Part shown: positions 623 to 9,389 of the stretch, piece by piece | How the letters are laid out: every line of letters starts with the position of its first letter | Position numbering within the stretch: position 1 is the stretch's first letter | Origin: Flavobacteriales bacterium | Lineage (GTDB): Bacteria > Bacteroidota > Bacteroidia > NS11-12g > UBA955 | Direction: 5' to 3' | NCBI GenBank assembly: GCA_947496375.1 | Contig: CANMCY010000001.1 | Span: 1 to 64,000, forward strand | DNA length: 64,000 nt | Translations under genes and position numbers: made by a program | The notes under the pieces: generated by a model | Seen by the model: only the letters and a program-made list of their open reading frames with translations | What the model was told of the DNA's origin: nothing | The model's database searches: none

Positions 623-630
623 TAACTTTG
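623..630 (+). promoter_or_regulatory. Bacteroidota -7 promoter element of pseB
   Basis: TAACTTTG is a perfect match to the TAnnTTTG element read by the Bacteroidota primary sigma factor. It ends 5 bases before the pseB ATG, so transcription would start at or next to the start codon. No clear -33 TTG is seen. Confidence 0.6.
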
Positions 631-635
631 CATTT

Positions 636-1670
636 ATGTTCGAAAATCACTTCCCTGATTTAAACAAAAAAAGTGTACTCATTACAGGCGGAACCGGCTC
701 GTTTGGTAAGAAATTTATGGAGACATTGCTGCAGCTGTATCCTCAGATGGAACGCCTTGTGGTGTATAGCCGTGATGAACTGAAGCAGTTTGAGATGAGC
801 CAGAAGTGGAGTTCCGGTACAGACCACAGAATACGCTATTTTCTCGGGGATGTTCGGGATCTCGACAGATTGCGCAGGGCGCTGGAAGGAATTGATGTGG
901 TGATTCATGCCGCTGCACTCAAGCAGGTTCCGGCCGCTGAATACAATCCATGGGAATTTGTAAAGACCAACGTGATGGGTGCACAGAATATTATTGAAGC
1001 GTCTTTGGATCAGGGCGTGGAAAAAGTAGTGGCATTAAGTACAGACAAAGCAGCGGCCCCTATTAATTTATACGGTGCTACAAAATTGTGCAGCGATAAG
1101 TTGTTTACGGCTGCAAATAACATTCGCGGCAAGAGAAATATAACGTTTTCTGTGGTGAGGTATGGCAACGTGATGGGAAGCCGGGGTAGTGTAATGCCCT
1201 TTTTTCTGGAAAAATCTAAAACCGGGAAATTGCCTATTACAGACACCCGAATGACTCGTTTTAACATAACCCTTCAGGATGGTGTTAATCTGGTTTTACT
1301 GGCCCTGAAAAATGCCTGGGGAGGCGAAATTTTTGTCCCCAAGATCCCTTCATATAAAATCGGTGATGTGGCAGAAGCGATAGGGCCAAATTGTGAGCGT
1401 GAGATTGTAGGAATCAGGCCCGGTGAAAAAATCCATGAAGAAATGATTACTGAGAGCGATAGCTTCAATACCTTTGATTGTGGAGATTATTACGCCATTT
1501 TGCCTACGGTTCCGAATTTTAACCTAAACGACTGGCAGCATCATTTCGGAGCAGCTTCTGTAGCACAGGGTTTCAAATACAATAGTGGTGAGAACGATCA
1601 ATGGCTGTCTGTTGAGGCCATCCGTGAACTCATCAAAATCCACATGGATTCTGAATTTACCCCCGTATGA
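636..1670 (+). CDS. pseB: UDP-N-acetylglucosamine 4,6-dehydratase (inverting)
   Basis: First enzyme of CMP-pseudaminic acid synthesis: it converts UDP-GlcNAc to UDP-2-acetamido-2,6-dideoxy-beta-L-arabino-hexos-4-ulose in the cytoplasm. The 344-residue protein has the extended SDR Rossmann motif GGTGSFG at residues 18-24. Catalytic residues match FlaA1/PseB: Asp137-Lys138 in STDKA, Tyr146 and Lys150 in YGATK. Length is normal for the family. The ATG at 636 follows a -7 element by 5 bases. The stop overlaps the pseC start (ATGA), so the two are co-translated. The related retaining dehydratases (legionaminic or QuiNAc routes) are longer membrane proteins, and the pse gene context settles the choice. 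Confidence 0.93.
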   Translation: MFENHFPDLNKKSVLITGGTGSFGKKFMETLLQLYPQMERLVVYSRDELKQFEMSQKWSSGTDHRIRYFLGDVRDLDRLRRALEGIDVVIHAAALKQVPAAEYNPWEFVKTNVMGAQNIIEASLDQGVEKVVALSTDKAAAPINLYGATKLCSDKLFTAANNIRGKRNITFSVVRYGNVMGSRGSVMPFFLEKSKTGKLPITDTRMTRFNITLQDGVNLVLLALKNAWGGEIFVPKIPSYKIGDVAEAIGPNCEREIVGIRPGEKIHEEMITESDSFNTFDCGDYYAILPTVPNFNLNDWQHHFGAASVAQGFKYNSGENDQWLSVEAIRELIKIHMDSEFTPV

Positions 1671-2815
1671 AAAATATTCCCTACGGCCGCCAGCATATAA
1701 CGCAGCAGGATATTGATGCTGTGAGTGCTGTATTAACGGGTGATTTTTTAACCCAGGGTCCGGCTGTAGAGAAATTTGAAAAAGGATTTTCGGCCCATGT
1801 GCATTCATCCCATGCGGTTGCCGTGGCCAATGGGACGGCCGCCTTGCATTTATGTGCCATGGCCTTGGATGTAAAGCCGGGCGATCGGTGGTTAACAACG
1901 CCAATATCCTTTGTGGCCAGCGGAAACTGCATTTTGTATTGCGGTGGCCAGGTAGATTTTGTGGATATAGATCCCGCCACACTGACCATGGATTTGAATC
2001 AGCTGGAGGATAAACTAAAAACCGGTCGTTACAAAGGCGTAGTACCGGTAGATTTTGCAGGATATCCGGTGCGAATGGATGAGGTAAAAATCATGGCAGA
2101 CCAATACGGCGCCAGGATCATTGAAGATGCCTGCCACGCACCGGGCGGGTACTTTACAGACAACACAGGCGAAATCCGCTACTGTGGTGATGGTCAGCAT
2201 GCCGATCTGGCGATTTTTTCGTTTCATCCCGTTAAGCACATTGCCTGCGGCGAAGGAGGGATGATTACGGGCAATAATCCTGCACTCATAGATAAAGTAA
2301 AATTGCTCCGCACCCATGGCATCACCCGCGATCCGCAGAAAATGCATGAAAACCATGGTGGCTGGTATATGGAAATGCAGGAACTGGGCTACAATTATCG
2401 TATGCCGGATGTGTTGTGCGCTTTAGGTTCATCGCAGCTCACACGTGCCGACGAAGGACTCGTGAAACGCAGGGCCATAGCCCGCCGATACGGTGAGGCA
2501 TTCGAAGGTTGTAATCTATCTTTTACCCATGTTCCGGATGGTATGGGTCATGCGTACCACTTATACGTTATCACTACCTCCAATAGAAAGGCGCTCTACG
2601 ACTTTTTGAGGGAAAATGGGGTTTTTGCACAGGTTCATTACATACCCATGCACACCATGCCCCATTACCAAAACATGGGTTTTAAACAAGGCGATTTTCC
2701 CAAAGCAGAAAAATATTACGAGGAATGCCTGAGTCTGCCCATGTATCCGTCGCTGTCGTCAGAAGATCAGGAATATGTTATTGATTTGGTAAAGGAATTT
2801 TTGCGAAAGCAATAA
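1667..2815 (+). CDS. pseC: UDP-4-amino-4,6-dideoxy-N-acetyl-beta-L-altrosamine transaminase
   Basis: PLP-dependent aminotransferase of the DegT/DnrJ/EryC1 family. It aminates C4 of the PseB product using glutamate as donor. The 382-residue protein shows the family signature SFHPVKHIACGEGG, in which Lys190 is the expected Schiff-base lysine, preceded by EDACHAPGG near residue 153. It overlaps pseB by four bases and pseF starts 7 bases downstream, so pseB-pseC-pseF form a tight operon. Substrate assignment rests on the neighbours, because sugar aminotransferases of this fold are hard to separate by motif alone. Confidence 0.92.
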   Translation: MKNIPYGRQHITQQDIDAVSAVLTGDFLTQGPAVEKFEKGFSAHVHSSHAVAVANGTAALHLCAMALDVKPGDRWLTTPISFVASGNCILYCGGQVDFVDIDPATLTMDLNQLEDKLKTGRYKGVVPVDFAGYPVRMDEVKIMADQYGARIIEDACHAPGGYFTDNTGEIRYCGDGQHADLAIFSFHPVKHIACGEGGMITGNNPALIDKVKLLRTHGITRDPQKMHENHGGWYMEMQELGYNYRMPDVLCALGSSQLTRADEGLVKRRAIARRYGEAFEGCNLSFTHVPDGMGHAYHLYVITTSNRKALYDFLRENGVFAQVHYIPMHTMPHYQNMGFKQGDFPKAEKYYEECLSLPMYPSLSSEDQEYVIDLVKEFLRKQ

Positions 2816-2822
2816 ATGCAAC

Positions 2823-3503
2823 ATGAATAAAATTCTGGCGTTGATACCTGCCAGGGGAGGCAGTAAGCGAATTCCCGGTAAAAATAGCCGCCTGTTTATG
2901 GGTAAACCCATTATCCAGTACAGCATAGATGCAGCGAGTGCTTCAGAAATATTCACGGATATTTGGGTTAGCACAGACAAGGATGAAATTGCTGAATTGT
3001 GCAGGTCAGAAAAAATTCATGTGCACGACCGCAGCGCAGAGGCGGCCTCTGATGTGGCAACCATTAGTGAGGTGCTGAAAGAAGTTCTTGTCGATTTGGA
3101 CATACATCAGGGTACGCTGTGCCTGATATACGCCACAGCGCCATTTGTGGATGCGGATATGCTCAAAAAATCATACCGGGAATTTGTGACATCCGGAGCG
3201 GACAGTTTGCTTCCGGTGGTTCGCTATTCATTCCCTATTCAGCGGGCCATGAAGTCGGAGGATGGCTGGTTACAGATGATTCAACCCGAAAACATGCATG
3301 TTCGTTCTCAGGATTTACCGGCTTCATTTCATGATGCCGGTTTATTTTTCTGGATTAACGTAGAAAAATTCTTGCAGTCCGGTAAGGTATTCATGGATAA
3401 AACCCTGGCTTTTGAGGTAGATGAAATGTATTGCCAGGATATAGACAACGAAAGCGACTGGAAGGCCGCCGAGTTGAAATACAAAATCATGCATGCCGGC
3501 TAG
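2823..3503 (+). CDS. pseF: Pseudaminic acid cytidylyltransferase
   Basis: Activates pseudaminic acid with CTP to give CMP-pseudaminic acid, the donor for glycosyltransferases. The 226-residue protein begins with the CMP-sugar synthetase signature ALIPARGGSKRIPGKN and has the family LIYATAPF and DAGLFFW segments. Length fits PseF/NeuA-type enzymes. It lies 7 bases after pseC. Its stop is 11 bases from the stop of the convergent pseG. CMP-sialic or CMP-legionaminic acid synthetases share the same fold, but pseB, pseC, pseG and pseI around it support pseudaminic acid. Confidence 0.9.
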   Translation: MNKILALIPARGGSKRIPGKNSRLFMGKPIIQYSIDAASASEIFTDIWVSTDKDEIAELCRSEKIHVHDRSAEAASDVATISEVLKEVLVDLDIHQGTLCLIYATAPFVDADMLKKSYREFVTSGADSLLPVVRYSFPIQRAMKSEDGWLQMIQPENMHVRSQDLPASFHDAGLFFWINVEKFLQSGKVFMDKTLAFEVDEMYCQDIDNESDWKAAELKYKIMHAG

Positions 3504-3514
3504 ACAATGCCGCA

Positions 3515-4492
3515 CTAAAAGCTATCTTTTAATAGGTTTTTAAAATTTTCCGGGTCAGCGGCCTTCATTAGGTTGTACTGATTCATTTTCAGCTCATCTG
3601 CATTCATTAGTATCAGCTGCGACAATACATCCAGGGCATTTGCTGTGTGTAAATCTCCTGCATTCAGGGCGGTTTGGTATTTTTCGCAAGTTGCGGCAAT
3701 CATTTTTTGATTTTCATGGGTATAGCCGGTAGCAATGCAAGAGCCCACGCACATGGCTTCCAGGGTAAGCGTTGAGGCCGTTAACAATGAAAATTTACAG
3801 GATTGAATCAGCGCAACCATTTCATCGGCATTGAGTCCAATATGCAAGTGTATCGCTTCATTGCATCTTTCCCTGAGGGCGGGTAATCTGTTGTTTAAGT
3901 GACTGGTAACGAGGTGAACAGGCGCAATACCCAGTTCTATCGCAGCTTGCAGGAATTTTTCTGTCAGCTGCTCAGGGTCGGTCCCGCCCAATGCGATTAT
4001 CAGCCCGGACTGAGGGGAGGTTTGATGATGGTTTTTAAGCGCATCCAGAAATGGTTTTCTCAGCATCAGGTATGCTGATCCAAGCAGCAAGCGCGTTTCA
4101 GGTAGGTGATCAAACCCATTTTTTTCAGCAGCGGGCAAATGATTGATGATAACATTGCAGGGCAGGGCGTCGGCCGGTATATCGTTAATGCCAATGGTCC
4201 ATAAGCCATGTGCCTGTAATTGGTGTACATCTTCCTTGGTCAATGCGTAATCATCCAGTATCACATGGTCCCCGGGTTTTGATTGTTGCAAAACGAAGCT
4301 CAATCTGTCTGTGTTATAAACACAAGGGAAATGGCCATATTGGAGGGATTCGTCTGTTTTATTGAAAACGAAGCAAATGTGGGTGAAATATTGCCTGATG
4401 CTGTCGGAAATGGAGGTGCAACGATTTACATGGCCCAGTCCAACACTGGGATTGCCTGTGGTAATTACGAATAAATCGGGTCTTTGCAACAC
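3515..4492 (-). CDS. pseG: UDP-2,4-diacetamido-2,4,6-trideoxy-beta-L-altropyranose hydrolase
   Basis: PseG removes UDP from the diacetamido sugar to release 6-deoxy-AltdiNAc for PseI. The protein is about 325 residues and keeps the GT-B-like PseG signatures: GLGHVNRC near the N-terminus, LDDYAL, LLLGSAYLMLRKPF and ALGGTDPE. The start is chosen at GTG 4492 because a -7 element (TACATTTG) ends only 3 bases upstream; a TTG two codons earlier would lie within that element. It is transcribed against pseBCF and divergently from pseI, an unusual order for a pathway normally in one direction. MurG-like nucleases or transferases share the fold, but the motif set and location make PseG likely. Confidence 0.88.
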   Translation of the reverse strand: MLQRPDLFVITTGNPSVGLGHVNRCTSISDSIRQYFTHICFVFNKTDESLQYGHFPCVYNTDRLSFVLQQSKPGDHVILDDYALTKEDVHQLQAHGLWTIGINDIPADALPCNVIINHLPAAEKNGFDHLPETRLLLGSAYLMLRKPFLDALKNHHQTSPQSGLIIALGGTDPEQLTEKFLQAAIELGIAPVHLVTSHLNNRLPALRERCNEAIHLHIGLNADEMVALIQSCKFSLLTASTLTLEAMCVGSCIATGYTHENQKMIAATCEKYQTALNAGDLHTANALDVLSQLILMNADELKMNQYNLMKAADPENFKNLLKDSF

Positions 4493-4495
4493 GTG

Positions 4496-4503
4496 CAAAT
4501 GTA
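4496..4503 (-). promoter_or_regulatory. -7 promoter element of pseG
   Basis: On the minus strand this reads TACATTTG, a full match to TAnnTTTG, 3 bases before the GTG start of pseG. It lies 13 bases from the -7 element of divergent pseI, so the two promoters must overlap back to back. Confidence 0.5.
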
Positions 4504-4516
4504 CCCCAAAATGGGT

Positions 4517-4524
4517 TAACTTTG
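4517..4524 (+). promoter_or_regulatory. -7 promoter element of pseI
   Basis: TAACTTTG, a perfect TAnnTTTG match, ends 6 bases before the ATG of pseI. It shows that the longer open frame starting with TTG at 4522 is not the real start, because that TTG is part of the promoter. Confidence 0.58.
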
Positions 4525-4530
4525 CTGAGC

Positions 4531-5580
4531 ATGAGCAGCATTGTTTTTGGCAAGAAACACATAGGGCACGGACTGCCTGCCTTGATTGCGGGAGAGCTGA
4601 GCGGCAATCACCGGGGCGATTTTGAGATTGCCAGAAAGTCGGTGTTGTCCATGAAAGAGTGTGGGCTGGATGCGGTGAAAATTCAAACCCTCAAGCCCGG
4701 AAACATTACGCTGGAAACAGATAATAAAGATTTTGTGGTGGGTGGCGGAACCCTGTGGGACGGCACTCCCTATTACAATTTGTATCAGGATATTTATACC
4801 CCTTGGGAATGGACGGTACCGCTGATGCAGCTGGCACATAGTCTGGATATGGAGTTTTTCAGTTCTCCGTTTGGGCATGAGGAGGTTGAGTTTTTGGATC
4901 AATGTGGTATTACGGCATTTAAAATAGCCAGTTTTGAAATAACGGATATTCCGCTCATTGAACATGCTGCTTCCAAGGCAAAACCCATCATTATCAGCAC
5001 GGGTATAGCCGGCTATGATGATATAAAGCTTGCAATTGATGCGTGCCGCCGCATGGGGAATAATCAGATTGTGATACTGAAGTGCACCAGCAGTTATCCT
5101 ACACCGCCGGAAGAAGCCAATCTGAGCATGATACCCCGTATTCGGGAAGATTTCAATGTGGAGGTCGGACTCAGCGATCACACCTTGGATATTGTGGCCC
5201 CTATCAGCGCTGCGGTTTACGGCGCTTGCCTCATAGAAAAACATTTTATACTGGATAAATCACTCGGCGGACCGGATGCGGCCTTTAGTTTAGAGCCCTC
5301 GGACTGGAAAAGTTTGGTGACTTCGGTTAGAATGGCCGAAAAAATGAGAGGGACCGACGATTACCGGTTAACAGAGAAAATGATTTCGGGAAGGACGCAT
5401 TCCCGCAGTTTATACGTAGCTGAAGATGTTGAAGCAGGAGCAGTGGTAAATGAAGAGAATGTTCGCAGTGTGAGGCCCGGTTTTGGTCTTCATCCTAAAT
5501 ACTGGCCGGAGGTTAAGGGGCGCAAGTTTAAAACGCCCTGTAAGAAAGGCGATCGCCTCAGTCTGGATATGCTTGAATGA
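4531..5580 (+). CDS. pseI: Pseudaminic acid synthase
   Basis: Condenses 6-deoxy-AltdiNAc with phosphoenolpyruvate to make pseudaminic acid. The protein has 349 residues from ATG 4531: an N-terminal NeuB-type TIM barrel with AGELSGNHRGDFEIA, AVKIQT, FFSSPF, IASFEITD and GLSDHT, then a C-terminal SAF domain in the last 60 residues (RSLYVAEDVEAG to GLHPKYWPEVKG). The start is fixed by the -7 element just upstream. It is followed after 13 bases by an unrecognised gene on the same strand. NeuB and LegI are close relatives; the pse neighbours and the AGELSGNH segment favour PseI. Confidence 0.91.
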   Translation: MSSIVFGKKHIGHGLPALIAGELSGNHRGDFEIARKSVLSMKECGLDAVKIQTLKPGNITLETDNKDFVVGGGTLWDGTPYYNLYQDIYTPWEWTVPLMQLAHSLDMEFFSSPFGHEEVEFLDQCGITAFKIASFEITDIPLIEHAASKAKPIIISTGIAGYDDIKLAIDACRRMGNNQIVILKCTSSYPTPPEEANLSMIPRIREDFNVEVGLSDHTLDIVAPISAAVYGACLIEKHFILDKSLGGPDAAFSLEPSDWKSLVTSVRMAEKMRGTDDYRLTEKMISGRTHSRSLYVAEDVEAGAVVNEENVRSVRPGFGLHPKYWPEVKGRKFKTPCKKGDRLSLDMLE

Positions 5581-5593
5581 AATAGATTGCGGC

Positions 5594-6520
5594 ATGGATA
5601 AAATCATACTATTCACACAGCATCTATTTTATACAGTTTTATCAATTGTAAAGGTTGTAATTAAAGCCAAAAAACATAAAAAACCCGTTGTAAACCCTTC
5701 GGAAGATTGCTATGTCATGGGAAATGGTCCGGCCCTATCTGCCGCCATGGAAAAGGACCCAAATTATTTTTCAGGTAAACATGTCTGCGTGGTAAATGGT
5801 TTTTCCACCACTGATATTTATGCAAAAATTCAGCCGCAGTCTTATTTTATCAAGGATGGATTGTTTTTTTGGATTGATGAAAATGAGTATGCCAATCCGG
5901 AACAAACCTGGAGAGAAAAAAAATCGATGGGTGAAAAAAATACGGTAATAGCGGCCGTTAATACCATCAAATCTATCAAAGAAAAAACCACATGGAAACT
6001 GAATTTATATATTCCCGTGTGGGCAAAAAAGTCACTATTGGTTAAAGAAGTTTCAACCAATCCTAACATTCATATTGTTTATTTTAATAATATTAAAGTA
6101 GAGGGTTTTCGCTGGTTTCTATACAGATTTATATTTCCTGCCGGTCTGGGTAATCCTCAGTTTATGAATGTAGTTCAGATGGCATTGTTTCAAAAAATAA
6201 ACGAAGGATTTAAAAAAATATACATATCGGGGGTCAATGCCAATTTTCATCAATATCTGGAGGTGGGTGATGACAATAAGGTATACATGGTTCAGCATCA
6301 TTTTTATGATAAATCGCCTACCCGAAATATATTGTCTGATCGGGATGCTTCCGGTAATTATATTCCCCAGCCCATCTGGAAACAATTTGAGAATCTGAAG
6401 CGTCTTTTCCGTGGGTTTGCCCAGATAAAAATGTATGCAGATTATAAACAATGTAGCATTATCAATACCTCTAAAGAATCTTTTATTGATTCATTTGACA
6501 GGGAATATATTTTTGATTGA
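5594..6520 (+). CDS. Unrecognised glycan-cluster protein with a GNGP motif
   Basis: 308 residues from ATG 5594, 13 bases after pseI. A frame reaching further upstream overlaps pseI and is not needed. There is no signal peptide, but residues 5-20 are hydrophobic and followed by a Lys-rich stretch. At about residue 40 it reads CYVMGNGPALSAAMEKDP, which resembles the nucleotide-sugar-binding GNGPSL motif of DUF115/Maf-like proteins, known in other bacteria to transfer nonulosonic acids to flagellin. The rest includes YISGVNANFHQYL and an Asp-rich loop. I do not recognise the family with confidence. Transfer of pseudaminic acid or another late glycan step is an inference from position. The gene looks more A+T-rich than the pse genes before it. 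Confidence 0.55.
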   Translation: MDKIILFTQHLFYTVLSIVKVVIKAKKHKKPVVNPSEDCYVMGNGPALSAAMEKDPNYFSGKHVCVVNGFSTTDIYAKIQPQSYFIKDGLFFWIDENEYANPEQTWREKKSMGEKNTVIAAVNTIKSIKEKTTWKLNLYIPVWAKKSLLVKEVSTNPNIHIVYFNNIKVEGFRWFLYRFIFPAGLGNPQFMNVVQMALFQKINEGFKKIYISGVNANFHQYLEVGDDNKVYMVQHHFYDKSPTRNILSDRDASGNYIPQPIWKQFENLKRLFRGFAQIKMYADYKQCSIINTSKESFIDSFDREYIFD

Positions 6521-8705: not shown

Positions 8706-9389
8706 ATGAAGAAGGTTTTAAAATGTCTGAATTTACTGGCCGTAGCAACGTTTTCTGTTTCGGCATTGTCTGCCCAAACCATCGAGATTCTGGGCGGCAA
8801 GTCACAAGACTTTTATCCCCAAGCTACGAATCCTTTTGATTGTCAGATCTATTTAAAAAACAAGGATTCAAAACCCCTTCGCATTGCATACGAAAAGGTA
8901 CTGGTGGATTATCCAAGCGGCTGGGGTTCACCGGCTTTTTGTGATAATGTAGGTTGTTACCTCACATTTGTAGACAGCGGAAAGTTTTCAGATATTGCAC
9001 CCGGCGAGAAAGCCAGTATTAAAATTAGCATATCTGCTCAAGGTGTTGCCGATACGGCGACCATCAAATACGCGGTTTGGGATGTTAACAATCCCTCTGT
9101 CAGAGATACGCTTACTTTCAATGTAATGGTACGCTGGTCAGCCGGAGCACATCTTACATGCATGCCTCAACAGGCAATTTATCCGGTTCCTGCTGACCAA
9201 CAACTTCAGGTAAATACGCTCGGTGTAGATTATATAGAAATTCTCAGTCTTTCCGGTCAAAAGGTTATGCAATACTACCCCAATGCCGATTGGTCCCGCC
9301 TGGATATTGCGCTGCTCAACCAGGGCAGTTATGTCATTGTGCTGAGGGGCAACAACATCCATCGTAAATATACTTTTCTCAAAAAGTAA
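8706..9389 (+). CDS. Secreted protein with T9SS type A sorting domain
   Basis: 227 residues. A signal peptide ends near residue 22 (VSALSAQT). The middle 110 residues look like an immunoglobulin-type fold with conserved Cys pairs in an SPAFCDNVGCYL segment, similar to DUF1573-like or extracellular adhesion modules. The last 75 residues carry the type A C-terminal signal: IYPVPADQQLQV, then IEILSLSGQKV and a terminal YVIVLRG to KYTFLKK. Such proteins are exported across the outer membrane by the type IX system and either released or attached to A-LPS. The specific function is unknown. Confidence 0.8.
   Translation: MKKVLKCLNLLAVATFSVSALSAQTIEILGGKSQDFYPQATNPFDCQIYLKNKDSKPLRIAYEKVLVDYPSGWGSPAFCDNVGCYLTFVDSGKFSDIAPGEKASIKISISAQGVADTATIKYAVWDVNNPSVRDTLTFNVMVRWSAGAHLTCMPQQAIYPVPADQQLQVNTLGVDYIEILSLSGQKVMQYYPNADWSRLDIALLNQGSYVIVLRGNNIHRKYTFLKK

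Follow-up and report, generated by a model that had tools for sequence, protein, structure and literature searches.

The locus analysed here raises the question of why two neighbouring genes of a pse cluster, pseG and pseI, point away from each other, and whether the two -7 boxes found between their starts act as a regulatory device. A preliminary description of this DNA (the window, i.e. the whole stretch of 64,000 nucleotides from the assembly of a Flavobacteriales bacterium) had proposed that the promoters of both genes overlap so that RNA polymerase can serve only one gene at a time, and that this could balance or exclude the two steps performed by PseG and PseI.

The pse genes of the window

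The genes pseB, pseC, pseF and pseI were all assigned by family models with scores above the respective cut-offs (Table 1). The assignment of PseG is weaker: the score with TIGR03590 is 121.2 bits, which is under the curated cut-off of 153.55, and the protein is for this reason referred to as PseG-like. Four of the six other strong TIGR03590 matches in the order also score under this cut-off. A GxGH motif near the N-terminus, as expected for PseG, is present (GLGH), the later blocks align with those of five relatives from the order, and pseB, pseC, pseF and pseI are the neighbours. The reading frame is intact and exhibits the family motifs in this six-row alignment, with no ATG near its start. 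TTG at 4498, GTG at 4492 and TTG at 4489 are the candidate start codons, and TTG 4489 is the most likely one, judged by eye from its best N-terminal fit in the alignment. The GC content of pseG (0.454) agrees with that of the window (0.455), and its composition shows nothing foreign. A sequence search for solved structures of PseG gave no relevant match, and no close PseG relatives were found in named genomes with six peptide patterns.

Table 1. Features of the pse locus (positions refer to the window).
Feature	Position	Strand	Evidence or remark
pseB	636..1670	+	TIGR03589, 510.5 bits, above cut-off
pseC	1667..2815	+	TIGR03588, 464.3 bits, above cut-off
pseF	2823..3503	+	TIGR03584, 232.4 bits, above cut-off
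pseG-like gene (UDP-sugar hydrolase family)	3515..4489	-	TIGR03590, E 6.2e-35, below curated cut-off
pseI, pseudaminic acid synthase	4531..5580	+	TIGR03586, 418.1 bits (cut-off 340.25)
-7 box of pseB, TAACTTTG	623..630	+	5 nt upstream of the pseB ATG (636)
-7 box of pseG, TACATTTG	4496..4503	-	3 nt before GTG 4492, 6 nt before TTG 4489
Spacer between the pseG and pseI boxes, 13 bp	4504..4516	.	imperfect palindrome with the box ends, TAcCCCAaaaTGGGtTA
-7 box of pseI, TAACTTTG	4517..4524	+	6 nt upstream of the pseI ATG (4531)

No pseH gene was noticed in the cluster, and the highest-scoring PseH match of the genome, located on another contig (G000:C6:109375-109701), is sub-threshold (51.2 bits vs. 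93.1). Downstream of pseI lies a gene (5594-6520; GC content 0.347) with a 52% identical counterpart in a same-genus relative and no family match above cut-off; as a guess, it possibly encodes a sugar transferase. Upstream of pseB, a gene cut by the window end (1-594) is 83% identical to its counterpart in the same relative and gave no NCBIfam match. Its product looks hydrophobic, from which one might guess at a flippase.

Two outward-pointing -7 boxes

Two exact TAnnTTTG boxes point away from each other between pseG and pseI, separated by 13 bases, and this part of the preliminary description was confirmed in full. The distance of 38 bases given there between the two genes applies if pseG starts with GTG 4492; with the best-fitting TTG 4489, the gap comprises 41 bases. 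Spacer and box ends form an imperfect palindrome that is symmetric about 4510, and its full pattern occurs once in a 372-kb sample of the genome. Both boxes stand at a distance plausible for promoters of the housekeeping type (6 nt, inside the peak observed in this genome; see below). The box of pseI is very probably a real promoter, judging from its spacing within this peak and from its conservation in the same-genus relative. The box of pseG is probably one as well, as TTG 4489, the start codon in agreement with the PseG N-terminus, follows it after 6 nt.

A TTG at a spacing of 17-23 is absent upstream of both boxes, and neither promoter shows the TTTG/TTG at -33 of the classical B. fragilis consensus. 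In the genome sample, TTG at this spacing was counted 6 times for 43 promoter-like boxes and 50 times for 278 others, i.e. without enrichment, and five of the six occurrences at promoter-like boxes have a spacing of 23. We do not regard the missing -33 element as decisive for membership in the housekeeping class, because the promoters of F. johnsoniae hardly show it either; there, the motif is described as 'much less evident' (PMC6847099). It had also been proposed that the -33 regions lie over the opposite -7 boxes; this holds as geometry, but no such elements are visible. With the promoters of the Bacteroidota factor sigma-ABfr (-7 TAnnTTTG) the locus shares exact -7 boxes and, as reported for F. 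johnsoniae, the lack of a prominent -33 motif. It differs in that the boxes stand 6 nt before the start codon, whereas 87% of the probable-promoter transcripts in the F. johnsoniae report have leaders of more than 10 nt (PMC6847099).

Placement of the boxes in the genome

The genome sample consisted of the window and 19 further stretches (L064-L082; together 372 kb of readable sequence), in which a simple script, and not a gene finder, took the longest ORFs of at least 100 amino acids. TAnnTTTG was found 4-8 nt before an in-frame ATG at 36 of 305 ORFs, in comparison to 1-7 for seven altered boxes. Altogether, 43 of the 321 boxes in the sample stand 4-9 nt ahead of an ATG, among them those of pseI (6 nt) and pseB (5 nt). 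For GTG and TTG starts the excess is modest, with eight boxes at 3-9 nt (that of pseG included), while the four control boxes gave 1, 3, 2 and 4. The boxes as such are not overrepresented: the window contains 57, with 56.7 expected from shuffled sequences, and in the whole genome they are rarer than the reversed control (2,057 vs. 2,769). The promoter signal is therefore the placement of the boxes, not their number.

The same preference is seen when only the 96 boxes of the sample with a gene-starting ATG at most 60 nt further on are counted: 41 of them stand at 4-9 nt, and two control boxes gave 1 and 3. The corresponding counts in 100-kb samples of other genomes were 13/28 (G059), 6/27 (G032), 6/20 (G098), 5/23 (G412), 2/11 (G389), 4/23 (G332), 1/2 (G291) and 8/29 (G373). 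In published transcript maps of two Bacteroidota, leaderless mRNAs are few: that of F. psychrophilum reports 5.5% (PMC9723704), and for B. thetaiotaomicron about 3.7% of the 5' UTRs are given as shorter than 10 nt (PMC7366714); these values refer to mapped starts and ours to sequence counts, so they are not directly comparable.

Tightly spaced outward boxes are also found elsewhere in this genome. Eight outward pairs at most 40 bp apart occur in the 372 kb, where 3.4 were expected and the maximum of 30 Markov simulations was 6. Of the 54 divergent ORF pairs, 6 carry such a box pair, pseG/pseI included. At a distance of at most 13 bases, two pairs were found vs. about 1.0 expected per 372 kb of Markov sequence. 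What is striking about the pair of pseG and pseI is that it stands at two gene starts, not its existence as such. Close outward boxes are a trait of the genome and not of this locus. The excess of about twofold over the Markov model would be in keeping with divergent promoters that are real. It also leaves some room for selection, and the pairing may not be wholly neutral. A tighter pair, with boxes only 1 bp apart, is located between divergent ORFs at G000:C2:8934-8950.

Orientation of pseG and pseI in other genomes

The statement of the preliminary description that pathway genes are normally co-directional is borne out by all loci compared. pseG and pseI share one strand in 26 of 26 other loci of the order and the class that hold both close together, and in 47 of 47 named loci holding both; the two sets were not deduplicated against each other. 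Among 108 genomes of the order, seven have a strong PseG match (11 matches in total, from which four weak, partial ones of about 20 bits were left out), and the six besides that of the window have both genes on one strand. Of 395 genomes of the class, 62 have a match. Besides the window's own, 29 of the remaining 61 had a locus and were examined; nine of these loci were left out, as no pseI was present within about 1.5 kb, or less at contig ends, and all 20 with an adjacent pseI match have it on the same strand. For the named set, the 80 best of 404 loci identified with PseI were used; 47 of them have a PseG match and 33 do not, and only the best PseG match per locus was read. One of the 26 (G077) has a pseI under the PseI cut-off, and those of L096 and L097 are only 28% identical to that of the window; these may be related synthases.

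The divergent order was thus found in no other locus examined, and the arrangement appears, so far, only in this lineage. A limited literature search for divergent pseG and pseI turned up Campylobacter papers, and an absence of the arrangement from print does not follow from it. The window has pseB, pseC, pseF and pseI in the arrangement usual for the clusters of other Bacteroidota, and pseG occupies the same place as in G037, G038, G039 and G083, where it lies between pseF and pseI with all genes on one strand. The window differs in the opposite strand of pseG and in a pseI with its own -7 box.

The locus of the same-genus relative

At genus level, the comparison rests on one genome, G001, which is a MAG; the five other genomes of the genus lack a PseI over the cut-off. 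In G001, pseB-pseC-pseF is followed by a gap of 211 bp (L055:8587-8797) and by a pseI whose product is 80% identical to that of the window. The pseI box and leader (window 4516-4530) match in 14 of 15 bases and the spacing is kept, whereas no similarity to G001 was detected upstream of the box, and the spacer palindrome is not present before pseI there. G001 likewise retains the boxes of pseB and of the gene at 8706, and in the case of pseB the similarity extends further upstream. A pseG was found neither in the gap between pseF and pseI nor elsewhere in G001 by TIGR03590, and tblastn revealed no remnants of it in the gap. Lack of conservation of the divergent order in close relatives had been set in advance as speaking against a functional divergent arrangement, and this is what was observed as far as it is testable, with G001 only at genus level.

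The Pse pathway of this relative (pseB, pseC, pseF, pseI) is without a recognised hydrolase, and the MAG may be incomplete. G001 also carries a minus-strand ORF of 843 amino acids (L055:10633-13164) between the gene following pseI and adk, and no such insert is present in the window.

Origin of the reversed gene

In this lineage, pseG has ended up in reverse orientation within the pseF-pseI gap, either by inversion in place or by loss and later separate acquisition; both would fit. In the trees, the PseG of the window clusters with six PseG homologues that all come from one other family (support 95/88). The PseI of the window is placed beside that of G001 (100/100); three family members and two class genomes join them more loosely (97/91). 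The two trees lean towards differing histories, though on long PseG branches. Four of the six homologues (L160, L161, L162 and L163) occur without pseB, pseC, pseF and pseI of the window's type in the fetched stretch, and L160, L162 and L163 have neighbours in common, judged by eye on the N-termini.

A phase-variable, invertible pseG segment was also considered and is not supported: 18 inverted pairs occur in 1,241 bases and the flanking repeats are unremarkable. An inverted repeat of 10 nt (3504-3513 / 4535-4544, 90% complementary) flanks pseG with its right arm in pseI, and a longer, weaker one (18 nt, 78%) spans the gene with its left arm inside pseG.

Two ordinary promoters or a switch

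Taken together, sequence comparison makes it quite probable that the locus consists of a gene reversed in this lineage and of two separate, ordinary, adjacent promoters of the Bacteroidota housekeeping type, which stand back to back. Each -7 box is followed after 6 nt by the probable start codon, so that both mRNAs would be nearly leaderless. If the distance of 4-5 nt between box and start reported for F. johnsoniae applies, transcription would start at 4490-4491 on the minus strand and at 4529-4530 on the plus strand, 38-40 bp apart, and TTG 4489 would be the only one of the three pseG candidates inside the transcript. The pseI promoter would be independent of pseG, because it is kept in G001, where pseG is missing. 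From the geometry, both promoters would never be occupied at the same instant, which should have little effect at ordinary firing rates. What the sequences show are the boxes, their spacing, the conserved pseI box and a divergent order not kept in the loci examined; the transcription starts, leaderless translation and the lack of coupling are what we infer. As a caveat, pseG would need a non-ATG start, and its box has no ortholog for comparison.

These two facts, together with the score of PseG under the family cut-off and its long branch in the tree, would also suit an explanation in which only the pseI promoter is real and the pseG box matches by chance, pseG being weakly expressed or transcribed from elsewhere. 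We consider this unlikely. With about one box per 2,421 strand positions, the chance that one given start is preceded by a box at 4-9 nt is about 0.25% at mean genome density, a value that rises in A+T-rich gaps and is to be read with the three candidate starts of pseG in mind. Furthermore, the frame is intact with its family motifs, and a few other genes of the sample pair a box with GTG or TTG.

A mutual exclusion of the promoters through polymerase occupancy, selected to balance the output of PseG and PseI, appears very improbable. Footprints on boxes 13 bp apart must overlap, the boxes stand symmetrically 6 nt before both likely starts with an imperfect palindrome between them, and outward pairs exceed the Markov expectation in this genome. 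Against this, the divergent order is absent from all other loci examined, the pseI box exists without pseG in G001, and similar and even tighter pairs occur elsewhere in the genome. In addition, Warman et al. report for five bidirectional promoters of E. coli that basal transcription is too low for polymerase competition, which arises once one direction is substantially activated (PMC12825309); this is a precedent from another phylum. Of the proposal that only one polymerase fits at a time, the geometry would stand; the balancing or exclusion of the two steps is not supported. The E. coli promoters are likewise short, roughly symmetric segments with outward transcription and no room for two polymerases. 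They are described as using one shared -10 element with starts mostly 18 bp apart, 10 and 23 bp also being common, whereas the window has two boxes 13 bp apart with more distant putative starts and would be nearer to the separate divergent promoters of these authors (PMC12825309). A wider version is very improbable as well: leaderless transcription would be common in the lineage, and the overlap of polymerase sites at back-to-back leaderless promoters would fix the proportion of two successive enzymes. A common regulator that binds the palindrome and controls both genes jointly is likewise very improbable. The symmetry of TAcCCCAaaaTGGGtTA and a similar CCCCAATGGGG in another outward box pair (G000:C2, about 45004) would agree with it, but the full pattern is found only once in 372 kb, it is missing before pseI in G001, and its short arms may be due to chance.

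As a switch, the pair of pseG and pseI does not stand. Of more interest than the locus itself is a by-product of the analysis, namely the large number of boxes in this genome that show a leaderless-type spacing, at only 4-9 nt before an ATG. The locus with its two probably ordinary promoters represents a clear, small case of a pathway gene that has the reverse orientation in one lineage and now faces the promoter of its neighbour.
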